In this document: positions 29,434 to 47,205 of the stretch, piece by piece
How positions within the stretch are numbered: position 1 is the first letter of the stretch
Layout of the letters: the number at the start of each line of letters is the position of its first letter
Origin: Granulicella sp.
GTDB taxonomy: Bacteria; Acidobacteriota; Terriglobia; Terriglobales; Acidobacteriaceae
Assembly: GCA_027365345.1 (NCBI GenBank)
Contig: DAHXNO010000202.1
Location: forward strand, 1 to 64,000
Reading direction: 5' to 3'
DNA length: 64,000 nucleotides
Made by a program: the position numbers and the translations under genes
The notes under the pieces: model-generated
Seen by the model: only the letters and a program-made list of their open reading frames with translations
What the model was told of the DNA's origin: nothing
Database searches by the model: none

Positions 29434-29563
29434 CGATGCATCACCAACCTTGATTCAATTGCGGGAGAGCGCATGCCGGGTTACCTGGATTCAATCCAGC
29501 ACCCCTCCTGGAGTCGCAGAGCCGACTGTAGTTGCCCTCACCTAGCCACAGAGCTATTTAGCC

Positions 29564-29730
29564 TTAGCCGACGGCACCGGTCAGATCTCCGCCGATGATC
29601 GTAAAGGCGGTGTCGGTAGCTGTGGCCAGAGCGGTCATCCCAGCGGTGGTAGCGAAGGCCATAAAAGGCAACCACCGACGCATACGCGATTAGATCCTAA
29701 CCCTGCTCGCCGCACAACGCCTCTGAACCC
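29564..29730 (-). pseudogene. Decayed second Flp-type pilin
   Basis: RC reads EQG*DLIAYASVVAF(+1)MAFATTAGMTALATATDTAFTIIGGDLTGAVG*, aligning to intact EQGQDLIEYALVVALIAFAATVGMRSLANDINSAFGTIGGDLQSAI*; one in-frame TAG and a one-base insertion. Confidence 0.85.
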
Positions 29731-29928
29731 CAAGGCACAGAACCGAACTGCGATGCGCCCTGAAATGCGATCGCGCGCGTCATAACCAAGCGCTAAAGAG
29801 TTTTACGCCGCGCGTGTCCGGGATCCACTGAAGAAAAGGATGAGAGAGCAGACCAGCTTCGCGCTCAAGCATCCTTTCCAACAGAGCGATAGAGTTCTTG
29901 TGGTGCGCTTACCTTGCCTCGCGCATAA

Positions 29929-30193: not shown

Positions 30194-30209
30194 TGCAAAT
30201 CAAGCGCCA
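30194..30209 (-). promoter_or_regulatory. Putative sigma-54 (-24/-12) promoter of flp
   Basis: RC TGGCGCTTGATTTGCA: GG-N10-GC spacing, close to TGGCAC-N5-TTGCA. Confidence 0.75.
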
Positions 30210-30273
30210 TTCTGGATCAATTCTTGTTTACTCTTATGATTCAATGAGTTACATGTCTTACGGCTCATCGAGA

Positions 30274-30290
30274 TGTGCACGGTTGTATAC
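30274..30290. promoter_or_regulatory. Putative activator-binding dyad (UAS) upstream of flp
   Basis: TGTGCACGGTTGTATAC; matches TGTGnACnnnTGTnTAC shared with two other sites in the locus. Confidence 0.65.
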
Positions 30291-30397: not shown

Positions 30398-30739
30398 TTA
30401 ATAGCTGAGCGGGGAGAATTCGAGCCTGTCCCCTGGTTTCGTCTGCGAGCTGAAAACTGCTCCGGCAGCCAGCTCGACGACAGAGTGCGCCGAGAGACAG
30501 GCGGAGATCCGCCACGGTGTGACGCGGCTACAGACTTTTTTGACTTGCTTCTTGCGGTCCACGTAGACAAGGTCAATGGAGAACCGCATGCCGAAGGTAT
30601 GCACGGCTTGACAGGGGATAATCCACAAACCTTCTCCGGGCTCCAGGCCGTTGCGTCCCAAGAGGCCTTTGTTGCGCGTGGCGGCTCGGTTTGCCAGTTC
30701 CACGCGATCAGCGAGGATCGTCTGCCGGGTGAGGTTCAC
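30398..30739 (-). CDS. DUF192 family protein (paralog 1)
   Basis: NKGLLGRNGLEPGEGLWIIPCQAVHTFGMRFSIDLVYVDRKKQV. Confidence 0.88.
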   Translation of the reverse strand: MNLTRQTILADRVELANRAATRNKGLLGRNGLEPGEGLWIIPCQAVHTFGMRFSIDLVYVDRKKQVKKVCSRVTPWRISACLSAHSVVELAAGAVFSSQTKPGDRLEFSPLSY

Positions 30740-30838: not shown

Positions 30839-31885
30839 TCAGTTGAAGATGGCACCCACGGTGTCGTTGGTGGTCAAGGTGACGGTACAACTGTTTGGCC
30901 CTGTTGCGGTAAGGGGACCCGTGTTGGTGCAGTTGGAGGACCATCCGCCGAATGCGGCTCCAGTATCTGGCGCGGTGAGGGTTACGGTGGTGCCAACGGG
31001 GTAGGTAGCGCTGCAGACGGAACCGCCCGGCGCTGCCCCGGGGCCGCAATCGATCACATTGGGCGTGCCCGTGGCAGAAGGCGCCGTTACCAGCCAATTG
31101 GTAGTATTCAAGCCCTCGTTATAGACCGTAAGAGTGGCCAGAAGCGCGGCTGCCTGAGACCCTGGATAGCAGGAACCCGGAGTGGTTGGAGGGTTCGGTA
31201 AGACGAGGGGGCAGTTGAAGGTTGCCGTGGCAGTCTGTATCGACCCATCGCTGCCCGTTGCTTCCGCGGTGATCACAGCGCTTCCGCTCCCATAGGCCGT
31301 GACAATCCCGGCTGTAGCGCCCATATTCCCAGCTGTGCTGGTGTTGATGGGAAAGACGCTGGGTGAAGCGGAGATCCAGGTGAGCATTGGAGAGTTGGTG
31401 AGATCCCTGACGGTGGGCGCGGTGGAGAACGTTCCGATGGCCAGGAATTGACCGGTATCCTGCAAATTGCCAACGGTAATCGAGCTGGGAATAATGGTGA
31501 GCGAAACCAACTGCTCTCCCGATCCGCCCCCGCCTGAACCTGTAACAACCAGGGTTGCGCTTGAGCTGGCAGTACCGTTGTATGCCTTGGCGCTGGCTGT
31601 AATGGTTGTTGTACCGGCACTGAGACCGGTTGCGAGTCCGGAAGGACTGACGGTTGCGACGGCAGGAATGCTGGAGGTCCAGGCAGCCTCGGTCACGTTC
31701 TGCGTAAAGGGATTGGTCGCATTGCCAAATGTTCCGACGGCGGTGAATTGCGCAGTCTGACCCACGGTTACGGACTGAGTTGCCGGCGTAACCTGGATGG
31801 AATCCAATTCTCTGTTGGCGCATCCCGCGAGGAACAGAACAAGGCAGGCGAGCGAAAACGCCCTAAAATAATGACGATCTATCAT
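30839..31885 (-). CDS. Surface lipoprotein with bacterial Ig-like (BIG2) domains
   Basis: Lipobox LFLAGCANR; IQVTPATQSVTVGQTAQFTAVGTF...WTSSIPAVATVSPSGLATGLSAGTTTITASA. Confidence 0.85.
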   Translation of the reverse strand: MIDRHYFRAFSLACLVLFLAGCANRELDSIQVTPATQSVTVGQTAQFTAVGTFGNATNPFTQNVTEAAWTSSIPAVATVSPSGLATGLSAGTTTITASAKAYNGTASSSATLVVTGSGGGGSGEQLVSLTIIPSSITVGNLQDTGQFLAIGTFSTAPTVRDLTNSPMLTWISASPSVFPINTSTAGNMGATAGIVTAYGSGSAVITAEATGSDGSIQTATATFNCPLVLPNPPTTPGSCYPGSQAAALLATLTVYNEGLNTTNWLVTAPSATGTPNVIDCGPGAAPGGSVCSATYPVGTTVTLTAPDTGAAFGGWSSNCTNTGPLTATGPNSCTVTLTTNDTVGAIFN

Positions 31886-32012: not shown

Positions 32013-33548
32013 TCATTGGGGCATCGTGCCGCCGCCACCGCCTTGAGTCATTCCATCTCCAGACTGGATGACTAATGGGTGCTCGGGTTGCATGCTTTGC
32101 ATCAACTGCTCAAAGGGAATGTTGGTTGGAGAGGGCGGCAGAGGTTTTGCTCCGGTCACATTCGCCCCCGGAGTCGTCATGGGCATTCTTGAGTTCGACG
32201 GCAGGAACGGCTCAGGATAATTCAACTTTGGCAAAGGGACGCCGACGGGGACGGGAGCGACGATCTCCGGGGTCACAAAGACGATCAGCTCGGTGTTGGT
32301 GGTGGTCTTTGAGATCGATTGAAAGAACTTGCCGAGTATGGGTATGTCGCCGAGGAACGGAACCTTCTCTAAATTCTGGGTCTCGCGATTGTCGAGCAGA
32401 CCACCGAGCGCGAAACTCTGTCCTTGGGCCATTTCTACCTCGGTGTTCATCTTGCGGACGTCCAGGGCAGGGACGGTGAAGCCAGAGATTTGTATGCCAT
32501 CCAGAAAGTCCAGCGAGCTGACCTCCGGGGCGACCTGAAGACGAATTGTATTGCGAGCGGTAATGGTTGGGATAAAGTTGAGACGCACTCCGAATTCCTG
32601 AAACTGAATGGTGACCGCGCCTACGCCCCCTCCGGTGACTCCCTGAACCACGGGGTAAGGATATTCTCCACCGGCAAGAAAGCTGGCCTGCTTGCCATCC
32701 GCGGCCAGCAGGTTCGGTTCAGAGAGAACCTGAATCACGCCGTCATTCTCCAGGGCCTGGATGGTTGCTCCCAGGCCGATGTTCTGATTGAACAGGGAGA
32801 TGTTCAACGCATTGGAAATCGTGGCTACGCCGGCCCCAGCGGATGGAGTGGAGACGCCAGGCCCCTGATATTGGCCGGTGGAGATGGAGCCAATGGTATT
32901 GGCCGCTCCCACACTGAAGATGTTCACGCCAAGCTGCCTCACCTTGCTCAAGTCAACACTGGCAAAGACCACCTTCAAAAGGATCTGCGGTTTGGGAGGC
33001 GGAACATCAACATAGAGCAGATTGACGACTTTGCCCGCAGTGGAGGCGATTTGCAATGCGCGCTGGGAACTATTCAGATCCTTCACCCTGCCCCGCAGGA
33101 AGATGGTTCCACCCTCCACGCTGACTTTGAGGGGTTGTCCCGGAAGCTCCAGCCGGAGCTCCCGCCGAAGTCCCTCGATCTCATCGTCCTCTGCAAAGAT
33201 ATTGGGGCGCACCGTGATCCTGAAGAACTGACGGCCTCCATTCGCCTCCCAAATGATCAGACTGGTAATGCCGGCAGCCTTTCCGTTGACCATGACCTCG
33301 GTTGGACTTGTTGCAGTAGCCTCCGCGATTCCGTCGGTCCCAAGCGCGACGCGGACGATCGGCTCAGCGGTATCGACGAGGACGGACTGCCCTACAGTTA
33401 CGACCAGATCATTGGCCGAGTCCTGACTGGAGACCTGGGCGGGCGGCTGGGCGGGATCTGCCTTCTCCGCAAGAAGATCCATCCCGCCATGGAACACACA
33501 AGAGGCGGTAAAGCAACACAGAATGGCGACTCCGGTCCTGGCTTTCAC
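32013..33548 (-). CDS. cpaC: Tad secretin CpaC/RcpA
   Basis: BON/N-domain region GGTIFLRGRVKDLNSSQRAL; secretin region VLSEPNLLAADGKQASFLAGGEYPYPV, FGVRLNFIPTI, QSFALGGLL, ELIVFVTPEIV. Confidence 0.94.
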   Translation of the reverse strand: MKARTGVAILCCFTASCVFHGGMDLLAEKADPAQPPAQVSSQDSANDLVVTVGQSVLVDTAEPIVRVALGTDGIAEATATSPTEVMVNGKAAGITSLIIWEANGGRQFFRITVRPNIFAEDDEIEGLRRELRLELPGQPLKVSVEGGTIFLRGRVKDLNSSQRALQIASTAGKVVNLLYVDVPPPKPQILLKVVFASVDLSKVRQLGVNIFSVGAANTIGSISTGQYQGPGVSTPSAGAGVATISNALNISLFNQNIGLGATIQALENDGVIQVLSEPNLLAADGKQASFLAGGEYPYPVVQGVTGGGVGAVTIQFQEFGVRLNFIPTITARNTIRLQVAPEVSSLDFLDGIQISGFTVPALDVRKMNTEVEMAQGQSFALGGLLDNRETQNLEKVPFLGDIPILGKFFQSISKTTTNTELIVFVTPEIVAPVPVGVPLPKLNYPEPFLPSNSRMPMTTPGANVTGAKPLPPSPTNIPFEQLMQSMQPEHPLVIQSGDGMTQGGGGGTMPQ

Positions 33549-34393
33549 TGTTTATCCTCGCGGGATGCGAATTTTGCTTCGCTGCGCTTTGATCCATTGA
33601 AGACTTCGATGAGATACACATGAGGCGCAGGGCGTGGATCTTTGCGAACCCCATGTCCGGACCGCGGAGCTACCGTAGCACTGGGTTCTCCATAGAGCCG
33701 AGCCAAGCCCGTCCCTGGGGTCTCCGCAATCTTGGTGTCGAGTGGGTTCCGCAGGACGAGCTGAATCTTTGTTTGATTGCTGGCCAGGCTCAAGGCCTCT
33801 GCCTGCGGAGGCGTCACCAGCAGATTCACCACCTGGACCCGTTGCGGCTTCCCTTCCGCATCTCTCTGAATATCCGTGCCGGCAGAGAGAACCTGGATGT
33901 TCTGCAGCAAGGTACGCACTTGTGATCCTTGCGCTGTATTGGTGGTACCAGGCGGATTACCGGAGATGAGCACATCGACCCGCATACCGGGCGTAACGAA
34001 GCCGGCCACGCCGACCACGTCATCCACTTTGACAGCGCAGGCGCGCATTCCGTTGGGAATGGTTGCGGCGAGGCCGCCTCCGGCACCGGGTGCGGCTAAA
34101 CGGTTATTCAAAATGGGTTCACCTAAGAACAGGTCAGAGAGTACGCCTCTGCCGATCGCATCTGAGGCTTTGAGGATGGCGCCTTCCGGAACGGCGCCTG
34201 AGATATCAATGGTCGTGAGATCGGCGGCGGCCAGAACAGTGCCGAGCTTAATGTCCCTTGCCGCGGCCACGATGCGTGTCACTTGATGATTGGGTGCGCC
34301 CAGGCGGTCCCGAACAATCCGGAACACGAGATAGCTGCACGCCATCGCAACCATAAAAGCGGTCGATAGAATAGTCATCAATCTTCGGTTCAT
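33545..34393 (-). CDS. cpaB: Flp pilus assembly protein CpaB/RcpC
   Basis: SAF-type region VVAAARDIKLGTVLAAADLTTIDI, GMRACAVKVDDVVGVAGFVTPGMRVDVL; overlaps cpaC. Confidence 0.93.
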   Translation of the reverse strand: MNRRLMTILSTAFMVAMACSYLVFRIVRDRLGAPNHQVTRIVAAARDIKLGTVLAAADLTTIDISGAVPEGAILKASDAIGRGVLSDLFLGEPILNNRLAAPGAGGGLAATIPNGMRACAVKVDDVVGVAGFVTPGMRVDVLISGNPPGTTNTAQGSQVRTLLQNIQVLSAGTDIQRDAEGKPQRVQVVNLLVTPPQAEALSLASNQTKIQLVLRNPLDTKIAETPGTGLARLYGEPSATVAPRSGHGVRKDPRPAPHVYLIEVFNGSKRSEAKFASREDKQ

Positions 34394-34448
34394 TCGAGCA
34401 CCTGCTCTAACTAGCTGTGAAGAGAATCTGGATTTCTGTTCTCATGGT

Positions 34449-34464
34449 GGCAATTTTTGTGCCA
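34449..34464 (-). promoter_or_regulatory. Putative sigma-54 promoter of cpaB-cpaC
   Basis: RC TGGCACAAAAATTGCC: full TGGCAC-N5-TTGC consensus. Confidence 0.82.
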
Positions 34465-34515
34465 AAGGAAAGAAAGCGGCTGAATGGGGGGTTACGGGGC
34501 AAGCGACACGGCAAG

Positions 34516-34532
34516 TGTGAACGCGTGTATAC
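34516..34532. promoter_or_regulatory. Putative activator-binding dyad (UAS) between divergent cpaB and TonB-like genes
   Basis: TGTGAACGCGTGTATAC; matches shared TGTGnACnnnTGTnTAC. Confidence 0.65.
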
Positions 34533-34613
34533 CCCTTTGCCTGCCGGTGTAGCCGTGGAGACACTCCATGGCACGACATATCTCTTGTCTGCGAAGGTTA
34601 CGGGCGCACCAGT

Positions 34614-34629
34614 TGGCCTGAGAATTGCT
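34614..34629 (+). promoter_or_regulatory. Putative sigma-54 promoter of the TonB-like gene
   Basis: TGGCCTGAGAATTGCT: GG-N10-GC with TTGCT -12 box. Confidence 0.6.
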
Positions 34630-34718
34630 GCTGATCTGAGTGGGTCTTCAAGAAATCGACAGCGATGTTTAGCCACTGACGCTGGCGTGGCGGCTCGCGA
34701 GCAGGAGTCACCACCGCA

Positions 34719-36164
34719 TTGAGATCTGCGCCGATCAACACGATCTTCACGACTCCACCACCGCCGCACACGCGACCGGGCTTCTTCATGGTCTCCATGC
34801 TGATACACGGTCTGGCGGTCATCGGAGTCTTCACGCTTCTGAATACGCCGAGAGTGGAGCCGACGCCGCCCGCAAGACGTTACACAACGCTTAGCGTCGA
34901 TCTGCAACGAGATCATCCGGTCGTGCAATGGTCGCCCGAGAACGGGGCGGCAGCGCCCACCGCGCAGACGGATACGCACGCAGCCCGGGCATCGGAAAGG
35001 GTTGCGGCGGCGGCGGCTCCGGCAGTTCCACGATCGTCCGCGTACCGAACTCCAGCGCCGATCACACTGATACAGCCGGACGTACCTCCGGATATATTAC
35101 TTCCGGTGAAGACGCCCCTTCCGATGATCGTGATGTGGACTCCACAGAGCACGTCCGTGGTGAAGATTGTTCCGCCTCCGCCGCAGCCACAACCAGCGGC
35201 CAATGTGCGGCCATCGCTTGCGAAGCCGAACCACGAAGTACCGGTTGTTGACGTTGAGCTTGCCTCGACCCCGGCCGCCTCTGAGACGATTCCGCTTCTA
35301 GCGGGCACAACCACGCCGATCCCGCAGCCTGGACTGGATCCATCACGGGTTCCAGAATCCTCGTCCACTTCCTCAGCGCCGCCGACGCCTAAGGCTGTTC
35401 TTTCGGTCTCTGATGTGGTCCTGTCTCAAGGAATAGCTACGCTGCCGCCTGCCAATCAAGTGGCGGCAGCAACCCGCACGGATTTTTTGGCTCCGGGACA
35501 GCCAAAGAGCGCGTCGGCTGCGGGTGTTGGAAGCATTGCGGGCAAACAGGGAGCGAGTGATTCCCGCGTGGTACCTGGCGACCATGGCAGCCAGACGCAG
35601 GCTGCGACCGGCCCTGCGGCGGAGAGCGGAACAAAGGCCAACCTAAGTTCCGGATCGAGCGCCGACTCAATTCCTGGATCTTCGCCGGGAGATGGATTAT
35701 CGGTCGCTCGCATCACACGGCCAATGGACGGCCACTTCGGCGTGATCGTCGTGGGAGATTCCGTCGCCGACGAATATCCCGAAGCTGCTGATATTTGGGC
35801 TGACCGCCTTGCCTATACGGTGTATCTGCACGTGGGCGATGCCAAGAGTTGGATCCTGCAATATTGCCTGCCGCGCGCCGCTCAAGCATCAGGGAGCACT
35901 ACGCGGCCAGACGCACCCTGGCCTTACCTGATGGTGACGCCTCACCTGGCCCCTGGCGACGCCGACAGCGATGCCTTGCTGGTGCATGGGTTCATCAATG
36001 CCGCGGGGCATTTTGAACATCTTGCGGTGGTCTTCCCCGAGCAGTTTGCGGAGAGCAGGTTCGTTCTTGGCGCCCTTCAGCAGTGGCAGTTCCGTCCCGC
36101 CACCCAGAATGGGCAATCGACGGCTGTGGAAGTACTGCTGATTATTCCTGAGGAAGATGACTAA
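34719..36164 (+). CDS. TonB-like protein: N-terminal TM, Pro/Ser-rich linker, TonB-C-like C terminus
   Basis: FMVSMLIHGLAVIGVFTLLNTPRVEPTPP anchor; long PT/S-rich spacer; C-terminal LLVHGFINAAGHFEHLAVVFPEQFAESRFVLGALQQWQFRPATQNGQSTAVEVLLIIP. Confidence 0.7.
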   Translation: MRSAPINTIFTTPPPPHTRPGFFMVSMLIHGLAVIGVFTLLNTPRVEPTPPARRYTTLSVDLQRDHPVVQWSPENGAAAPTAQTDTHAARASERVAAAAAPAVPRSSAYRTPAPITLIQPDVPPDILLPVKTPLPMIVMWTPQSTSVVKIVPPPPQPQPAANVRPSLAKPNHEVPVVDVELASTPAASETIPLLAGTTTPIPQPGLDPSRVPESSSTSSAPPTPKAVLSVSDVVLSQGIATLPPANQVAAATRTDFLAPGQPKSASAAGVGSIAGKQGASDSRVVPGDHGSQTQAATGPAAESGTKANLSSGSSADSIPGSSPGDGLSVARITRPMDGHFGVIVVGDSVADEYPEAADIWADRLAYTVYLHVGDAKSWILQYCLPRAAQASGSTTRPDAPWPYLMVTPHLAPGDADSDALLVHGFINAAGHFEHLAVVFPEQFAESRFVLGALQQWQFRPATQNGQSTAVEVLLIIPEEDD

Positions 36165-38536: not shown

Positions 38537-38896
38537 CTATGGCGCCCGCATTAACCTGTGAACCGTTCCGCCTGTTTTCCACGGCAGGATGGCGAGGCCA
38601 ACTCCGTCGGCGCCAACTCTTACAACCTTTGCCTGGACTGCAATCGATCGGTCAGAGTCGTCATCCGTCTTCCCTGTTTCCTGTATCCTCATTTGAATCA
38701 CAGTACCTGGATACCAACGATCTGTGGTCACGAGATACAGTCCCGACAAACTGATGTCCCGAACACGATGCGCAATCGGCGCCCCACCATTCCAATAGTG
38801 GGCGACCAGTCCGGGAAGAACGCGACGTTCGGCGTTCCGTTTTTCCCGGCCCAGTACTCTCCGCAAAAAGAACTTCAGTGGTCTTGGGTACTCCAC
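38537..38896 (-). CDS. PilZ-domain protein
   Basis: RRVLPGLVAHYWNGG...VRDISLSGLYLVTTDRWYPGTVIQMRI...VQAKVVRVGADGVGLAIL. Confidence 0.82.
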   Translation of the reverse strand: MEYPRPLKFFLRRVLGREKRNAERRVLPGLVAHYWNGGAPIAHRVRDISLSGLYLVTTDRWYPGTVIQMRIQETGKTDDDSDRSIAVQAKVVRVGADGVGLAILPWKTGGTVHRLMRAP

Positions 38897-39324
38897 ATTT
38901 CCTCATTTCCTTTCGTTGCCAGGACGGACGGGGCCGTCTGTGTCAAGCGTTCTTCGATCTCATCCGCGGCGCAGATCACGAGCTGATCGCCTACCTGGGT
39001 CTGCGAGGAATAGATCGTATGAGTCGGCAGCTCCAGCACGCTGGCGGCATGTAACTTGAGGGGTCCAATTTTAAATCGCGGAAAGTGCTCGGTGACGTAC
39101 ACCACACGATGATTCTCATCCAGATAGATCAGATCCAACGGAAACAAGACACCCCAGGTATGAACTCCGCTGGAAGGGACGACCCACAACCCTTCGTCAG
39201 AGTTCATACGCAGCTTTCCAATCAATCCTTTCAGGCGCATGAAGATGCTGTTCGCCGGGGTAACTCCCAGGCTAAGGAAGCACTCGCGCGTCTGATTGTA
39301 TACGCAGTAGGTTCGCCGTTCCAT
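38875..39324 (-). CDS. DUF192 family protein (paralog 2)
   Basis: LKGLIGKLRMNSDEGLWVVPSSGVHTWGVLFPLDLIYLDENHRV. Confidence 0.88.
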   Translation of the reverse strand: MERRTYCVYNQTRECFLSLGVTPANSIFMRLKGLIGKLRMNSDEGLWVVPSSGVHTWGVLFPLDLIYLDENHRVVYVTEHFPRFKIGPLKLHAASVLELPTHTIYSSQTQVGDQLVICAADEIEERLTQTAPSVLATKGNEEMWSTQDH

Positions 39325-45555: not shown

Positions 45556-45810
45556 GCCGCAATCAGGCGGCTCTCAGTCGCAATACGACCTGCCGCCGGC
45601 AATTAGGAGTCGCTAAGTTTGTGTTACTAAAGATTTATAGACTTAATCCGCAGACCCTGCTAATTCTACTAACCACAATCACTCTATCCAGCAATCGGGC
45701 CGCGTCAGCTAGCGGTAGAGGAAAAACAGGCCCGCAAGATTCCTACAAACATTGCATTCGATTTGGGCTGTTTCGTTGATCATAGCAAAGTGAGCAAGGA
45801 GTTCGTCCTT

Positions 45811-47205
45811 ATGATCCGTATAGCCGTGTTTTCTGAGGACTCGATCCTTCAGCAATTATTATCTACGGCCCTGGGTAAAGAATATCAAGTTACCCTGGAA
45901 CAAAATGAAGAGGAGATCCATCGCTTGTTCTGCACACGAGCGTGCGATGTAGTGGTTCTTGATCTCGATAGCAATCAAAACTCGCTGCAGCAGCGAATTG
46001 CCTGCTGTGAGCGAATTGTCGCCGCGGACATCTCACCGGTGGTGCTGGTTGACGATGGACTTCGCTCGATCGCCCTGGACCTGGTACGCCGTGGAGCACA
46101 CAGCTACTGCCGCAAGCCGCCGTCGCTGGTCGAACTGAAATCGATCCTGCGCCGCGCGTATGAGAACCGCTTGCTCAAGCTGAAATTAGAAGCGATGCAA
46201 CAGCAGTTGGAAACGGTGAGCACCTGTGATCGGATGATTGGATCCAGCCCCCAGATCCGCCAAGTGTACGATCTGGTGCGCCGCGTCGCAAATCTCAACA
46301 CCACGGTACTTGTGACGGGGGAGAGCGGTACCGGCAAAGAGTTAACCGCACGGGCCATCCATAACCTTGGAGATCGCTCCGCGCAACCCTTTGTGGCTGT
46401 AAGCTGCGGCGCCATTCCGGAAACCTTGGTAGAAGCGGAGTTGTTTGGGCACGAGAAGGGCGCCTATACCGGCACCATCGGCTCGCGGCAGGGCTATCTG
46501 GAACAGGCCGGCACTGGAACCCTGTTTCTGGATGAGATTGGCGAGCTTAGCTTGAACACTCAGGTAAAGCTTCTGCGCGTCTTGCAGGAGCGGGAGTTCT
46601 GCCGCCTGGGCAGCAACCGGCTGATTCCGCTGCGGGCGCGCCTGGTTTTTGCAACGCATCAGGATCTATCCGAGATGGTGGCGCTAGGAAAATTCCGGCA
46701 AGACCTTTTCTACCGCATCAATGTAATGAAGATTGACATACCGCCTCTTCAGGAACATCCGGAAGATATTCCGCTGATTGCCCAGCATTTTCTGCGGCGC
46801 TACTCCGAGATGCACGGAAAGACCGTTGAGGGGATTGATCCTGCCGCAATGGCTTTGCTACAAACGCACTCCTGGCCCGGCAACGCGCGCGAATTGGAGA
46901 ATGTGATTCAGCACGCCATTATCATGGCTAGCGGCCATATCATCCGAGTGGAAGATTTACCCCACGAGATGCAGGACGAGAATGTCATCCCTATCGATCA
47001 TTACTCTCCCGGCGGTTCCTTCGAGCGGCAACTTCGGGATTACAAGATAAAGCTGGTTACGGCCGCGGTGCGAGAGAACAATGGAAACAAGACTCTGGCG
47101 GCGAGCAGCTTGCAGATTTCACGTGCCTATCTGCATCGTCTTCTGCGGCTCGCCGAGCATGGTTTTATCGCCGAGCAAGTGGGCCCAGAGACGGAGACCG
47201 CTTGA
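45811..47205 (+). CDS. Sigma-54-dependent activator (receiver-like, AAA+, Fis HTH; NtrC family)
   Basis: VTGESGTGKELTARAIHNLG, ELFGHEKGAYTGTIG (GAFTGA variant GAYTGT), GTLFLDEIGELSLNTQVKLLRVLQ; C-terminal HTH NNGNKTLAASSLQISRAYLHRLLR. Confidence 0.94.
   Translation: MIRIAVFSEDSILQQLLSTALGKEYQVTLEQNEEEIHRLFCTRACDVVVLDLDSNQNSLQQRIACCERIVAADISPVVLVDDGLRSIALDLVRRGAHSYCRKPPSLVELKSILRRAYENRLLKLKLEAMQQQLETVSTCDRMIGSSPQIRQVYDLVRRVANLNTTVLVTGESGTGKELTARAIHNLGDRSAQPFVAVSCGAIPETLVEAELFGHEKGAYTGTIGSRQGYLEQAGTGTLFLDEIGELSLNTQVKLLRVLQEREFCRLGSNRLIPLRARLVFATHQDLSEMVALGKFRQDLFYRINVMKIDIPPLQEHPEDIPLIAQHFLRRYSEMHGKTVEGIDPAAMALLQTHSWPGNARELENVIQHAIIMASGHIIRVEDLPHEMQDENVIPIDHYSPGGSFERQLRDYKIKLVTAAVRENNGNKTLAASSLQISRAYLHRLLRLAEHGFIAEQVGPETETA

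Follow-up and report, generated by a model that had tools for sequence, protein, structure and literature searches.

Divergent neighbours that share a short intergenic region may be switched on together or simply lie back to back, and the pair considered here, a pilus assembly gene and a gene for a TonB-like protein, raises the question of whether one sigma-54 control region serves both. The pair lies in the window, a 64,000-nucleotide stretch of a Granulicella sp. genome of 4.2 Mb in 208 contigs. Relatives named Edaphobacter, Terriglobus, Granulicella and Terracidiphilus agree with a position in or near the Acidobacteriaceae. The region between the genes (34394-34718) is flanked by cpaB/rcpC, encoding an Flp pilus assembly protein (33545-34393, minus strand; Pfam RcpC 2e-27, SAF 1.9e-7), and by the TonB-like gene (34719-36164, plus strand), which has a TTG start and diverges from cpaB. 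Both are situated in a Tad/Flp pilus locus encoding CpaB, a secretin, TadE, a TadG-like protein, a CpaE-like protein, the CpaF ATPase, two T2SSF proteins, a prepilin peptidase and an Flp pilin. A short plus-strand open reading frame (34417-34722) that overlaps the control elements was not adopted as a gene.

An earlier note on this DNA had placed one sigma-54 element towards each gene, and both are present. The left -24/-12 element TGGCACAAAAATTGCC (34449-34464, minus strand) faces cpaB and the right one TGGCCTGAGAATTGCT (34614-34629, plus strand) faces the TonB-like gene; in each, GG at -24 and GC at -12 are separated by 10 bases in the context TGGC-N7-TTGC. Elements were scored with a position weight matrix (PWM) that we built ourselves, an approximate one following the published consensus. 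The left element, called near-perfect in that note, has the highest score of the window (16.4), where 0.32 such matches are expected per 64 kb. The right element (13.5) ranks fourth and is unremarkable by itself, because about 2.1 equally good matches per 64 kb are expected by chance; likewise the pattern TGGC-N7-TTGCW has three matches in the window against 1.7 expected. Judging the right element on its score alone was dropped as uninformative, and its status was settled by comparison among orthologues.

The stretch between the two promoters contains two GTRT-N10-AYAC dyads, 32 bp apart from start to start. UAS-P, the 18-bp dyad GTGTGAACGCGTGTATAC (34515-34532; family consensus GTGTGAACNNNTGTATAC), adjoins the left promoter, and UAS-D, GTGTAGCCGTGGAGACAC (34547-34564; family consensus GTGTAGCCNNNNAGACAC), adjoins the right one, with gaps of 50 bp from the left promoter to UAS-P, 14 bp from UAS-P to UAS-D and 49 bp from UAS-D to the right promoter. 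Upstream activator sites (UAS) of a sigma-54 promoter are expected to be dyads conserved in place, some 80-150 bp before the start, and the two dyads agree with this. The dyad previously described at 34516-34532 is thus real, at 34515-34532, but it is not single, as a second of the same form stands at 34547-34564.

We searched 398 genomes of the window's family, which gave about 70 good orthologues of the TonB-like gene, and examined 70 upstream regions. In 69 of the 70 cpaB is the divergent neighbour, and in the 70th the contig ends too early. With the two genes paired divergently in 69/69 loci having enough sequence, the TonB-like gene belongs as a rule to the Tad locus of this family, and its earlier description as apparently unrelated does not hold. 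The complete array (promoter, UAS, UAS, promoter) was found in 28 of the 69 orthologous intergenic regions, spread over 11 genera, under thresholds chosen after the first alignments had been seen, and the left promoter occupies the same position in 31. The two promoters co-occur, in that 28 regions carry both, three the left only, none the right only and 38 neither; as the species are related, the Fisher value for this is no true probability. Among cultured strains, Edaphobacter aggregans DSM 19364 and Terriglobus albidus DSM 26559 carry the array. When 399 genomes were sampled across the class, the exact four-part pattern occurred in seven, all belonging to the window's family, and not at all in the control.

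The array stands out from poorly conserved surroundings. Mean between-genus identity over the 28 arrays is 79% for the left promoter, 82% for UAS-P, 73% for UAS-D and 75% for the right promoter, and outside the elements it falls to 40% in the spacer of 14 bp and to 26-34% in the flanks and gaps. The TGG and TGC of the right promoter are invariant, its distance from UAS-D is 47-51 bp in 22 of the 28 arrays, and a right-type score of at least 8, reached in 4.6% of shuffled regions, is found beside 28 of the 31 left promoters. Given the ordinary score of the right element in the window (a 64-kb stretch should hold about two as good) and the three orthologous regions with a left promoter alone, one could argue that the right element matches by chance, that the left promoter alone functions and that the TonB-like gene is read from another promoter. 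Yet in 28 regions the right element keeps an almost invariant core and a near-constant distance while its flanks are only 26-34% identical between genera, which makes this very improbable. These comparisons lend strong support to a bidirectional sigma-54 control region that would co-fire cpaB and its divergent neighbour.

The 38 regions with neither promoter belong mostly to genus g9, and most of these keep rpoN and the orthologue of the candidate activator discussed below, so that the arrangement is dispensable there. In g9 (L042 and others) the cpaB/TonB-like pair is mostly kept, and both promoters and the dyads were either lost or never acquired. Several g9 members still show the UAS pattern at flp or at other sites.

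The pairing of the dyads bears on how the two promoters would be activated. Of the 28 arrays, 24 have their dyads 32 bp apart, two 31 bp and two 33 bp, and this constancy implies that the dyads work together. The gap from UAS-P to the left promoter clusters at 58-63, 50-51 and 36-37 bp. Two separate adjacent enhancers, UAS-P acting only on cpaB and UAS-D only on the TonB-like gene, would equally leave a comparable gap (about 50-60 bp) between each dyad and the promoter on its side and would suit the slight difference between the two consensus sequences; indeed the sequence in itself fits two enhancers as well as two shared dyads. Against this stand the 31-33 bp spacing in 28/28 arrays and the fate of UAS-D where the right promoter is missing. 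In G241 and G173 the right promoter is gone and UAS-D is retained, and in G012 and G004, two genomes of the window's genus in which no TonB-like gene was detected, the left promoter and the dyads persist at the cpaB orthologues, with UAS-D still recognisable. As UAS-D is kept without a right promoter, both dyads seem to serve cpaB, and we regard separate enhancers as unlikely.

Our preferred reading, to which we give a probability of roughly 0.8, takes the region for a bidirectional sigma-54 enhancer, with an activator assembly on two dyads serving both promoters. The proposal of the earlier note, that one activator-bound site co-fires the two genes, is upheld by the comparative evidence as regards bidirectional control and has to be amended as regards the site, which comprises two symmetric UAS 32 bp apart.

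The second-best sigma-54 score of the window (15.7) belongs to TGGCGCTTGATTTGCA (30194-30209, minus strand), located 62 bases before the Flp pilin open reading frame and accompanied by a dyad of the same UAS form, GTATACAACCGTGCACAT (30273-30290, minus strand). Downstream of this intact pilin gene, an apparent remnant of a second copy, broken across frames, was noticed at 29500-29760 (minus strand). Genome-wide statements are based on pattern searches: over the whole 4.2-Mb genome, TGGC-N7-TTGC preceded at 40-70 bp by a UAS dyad is found at four sites. Three of them belong to flp, cpaB and the TonB-like gene, and the fourth is probably a chance match; the reversed control gave no site. Since the pattern was itself derived from the flp, cpaB and TonB-like sites together with the G012/G004 alignment, its rarity elsewhere is the informative part. 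Across the family it was found in 32 of 398 genomes, with no match in the reversed control of any. Outside the window's genome, all examined loci except two (L064 and L077) precede cpaB, flp, cpaA or a Tad-linked lipoprotein gene, and this occurrence mainly before Tad genes makes the pattern a marker of a Tad regulon. The lipoprotein homologue has its own sigma-54 and UAS promoter in seven relatives. Its counterpart in the window's Tad region is a lipoprotein-like gene (30839-31885, minus strand) with the secretin on one side and flp on the other; upstream of its start (31885) no such promoter was detected, the best score being 2.0.

The Tad locus also encodes a sigma-54 enhancer-binding protein (45763-47205, plus strand; Sigma54_activat 7e-67), which we propose as the activator. 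It has matches at E <= 1e-90 in 61 of 71 genomes, and its orthologues conserve the Fis-type helix-turn-helix and the GAFTGT loop, which reads GAYTGT in the window. No Pfam receiver match was obtained for the protein, and the receiver region looks degenerate. It is encoded inside the Tad locus in most array-bearing genomes; in three array-bearing genomes, all incomplete, no orthologue was detected. The sigma factor itself is available, as rpoN is present in one copy in the window's genome (E 7.5e-57) and in 70 of the 71 genomes tested. From its location and the distribution of the motif, this protein is the likely activator at the dyads. The presence of the protein does not clearly follow that of the array, and their co-occurrence was not convincing as proof, as g9 keeps the protein without the cpaB sites. 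The same behaviour of most of g9, together with the presence of about a dozen sigma-54 activator-type proteins in the window's genome, leaves some room for another regulator at the dyads, for instance a different enhancer-binding protein; the encoding of the 45763-47205 protein within the Tad locus in most array genomes and the restriction of the motif mainly to Tad genes render that the less probable choice.

The elements suggest the following mechanism for the bidirectional enhancer. The dyads, whose spacing of 32 bp corresponds to about three helical turns, would be occupied by two dimers of an enhancer-binding protein, most probably the product of 45763-47205, and these dimers would assemble into one AAA+ complex. 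This complex could then activate sigma-54 RNA polymerase on both sides, at promoters about 50-60 bp from the nearest dyad, so that a single activator probably switches on the two genes at the same time. CpaB would thus be produced jointly with the TonB-like protein, and also along with the Flp pilin, whose gene carries the same type of UAS and sigma-54 element.

On the left side, activation in most species is probably aided by a bend of the IHF/HU type. The IHF consensus WATCARNNNNTTR, as quoted in PMC3897727, has a match in the left gap of 22 of the 28 arrays when one mismatch is allowed, and 13 of these are exact; chance would give 2.7% and 0.1%, respectively. The window's own copy, AATGGGGGGTTAC (34483-34495, plus strand), is degenerate and among the poor ones, and the right gap has no convincing match to WATCARNNNNTTR. 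Three genes of the HU/IHF family are present in the window's genome.

What the TonB-like protein contributes can be approached from its layout. The AlphaFold model has an N-terminal helix, a long middle part of low complexity and low confidence and a C-terminal domain resembling TonB_C. In the window's protein TonB_C is matched at E 0.091 with 13.7 bits, below the Pfam cut-off of 24.6, and among 20 orthologues 15 match it at E up to 0.1, the best at 2e-4. The best fold matches of the C-terminus are TonB C-terminal domains, weak ones (E 0.0095) obtained with a low-confidence AlphaFold model. As the TonB_C match stays below the cut-off and the likeness in fold is merely suggestive, we call the protein TonB-like rather than TonB. 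We tentatively raise the possibility that it is a dedicated part of the acidobacterial Tad machine that has so far escaped notice, for example one anchored in the inner membrane, spanning the periplasm and coupled to the secretin, which the shared enhancer would keep in pace with CpaB.

Divergent sigma-54 promoters under a common activator are known from other bacteria. The closest parallel, the orp1 and orp2 operons of Desulfovibrio vulgaris, are divergent sigma-54 units with the activator DVU2106 and IHF, and are expressed simultaneously (PMC3897727). They share with the present region two divergent sigma-54 promoters, palindromic activator sites and IHF sites between activator site and promoter. 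However, they belong to another phylum and carry genes related to cell division, and the gene for their activator, which is part of the same cluster, has a sigma-70 promoter that overlaps an activator site (PMC3897727), whereas the array described here, with two symmetrically placed dyads at a spacing of 32 bp, serves a Tad pilus locus. The enterobacterial hycA-hypA and zraP-zraSR units (PMC8743547, PMC3844500) similarly have divergent sigma-54 promoters around one intergenic region and a common activator, FhlA or ZraR, but their genes and activators are unrelated to those considered here. For Tad pili, DVU2114 of Desulfovibrio is described as a sigma-54-dependent response regulator of Tad-type pilin genes that is conserved in only a few species (PMC3333781); it resembles the present case as a sigma-54 activator governing Flp/Tad-type pilin genes and differs in that the part of that report available to us describes no divergent cpaB/TonB-like region. 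In the literature searched, whose coverage was incomplete, no account of Acidobacteriota with Tad pili under sigma-54 control came to light. The principle is thus already known, and this Tad regulon with its symmetric array appears to be undescribed.

These findings offer a testable definition of a Tad pilus regulon in Acidobacteriaceae by activator and motif, and they link a TonB-like protein, so far uncharacterised, with the Tad machine. Besides, a naturally symmetric bidirectional sigma-54 enhancer could serve as a model for one activator assembly acting on two promoters, and cultured strains bearing the array exist. Apart from these, the Tad cluster includes a gene for a PilZ domain protein (38537-38896, minus strand), which suggests an input from c-di-GMP, and two DUF192 proteins are encoded in the Tad region (30398-30739 and 38875-39324, minus strand).
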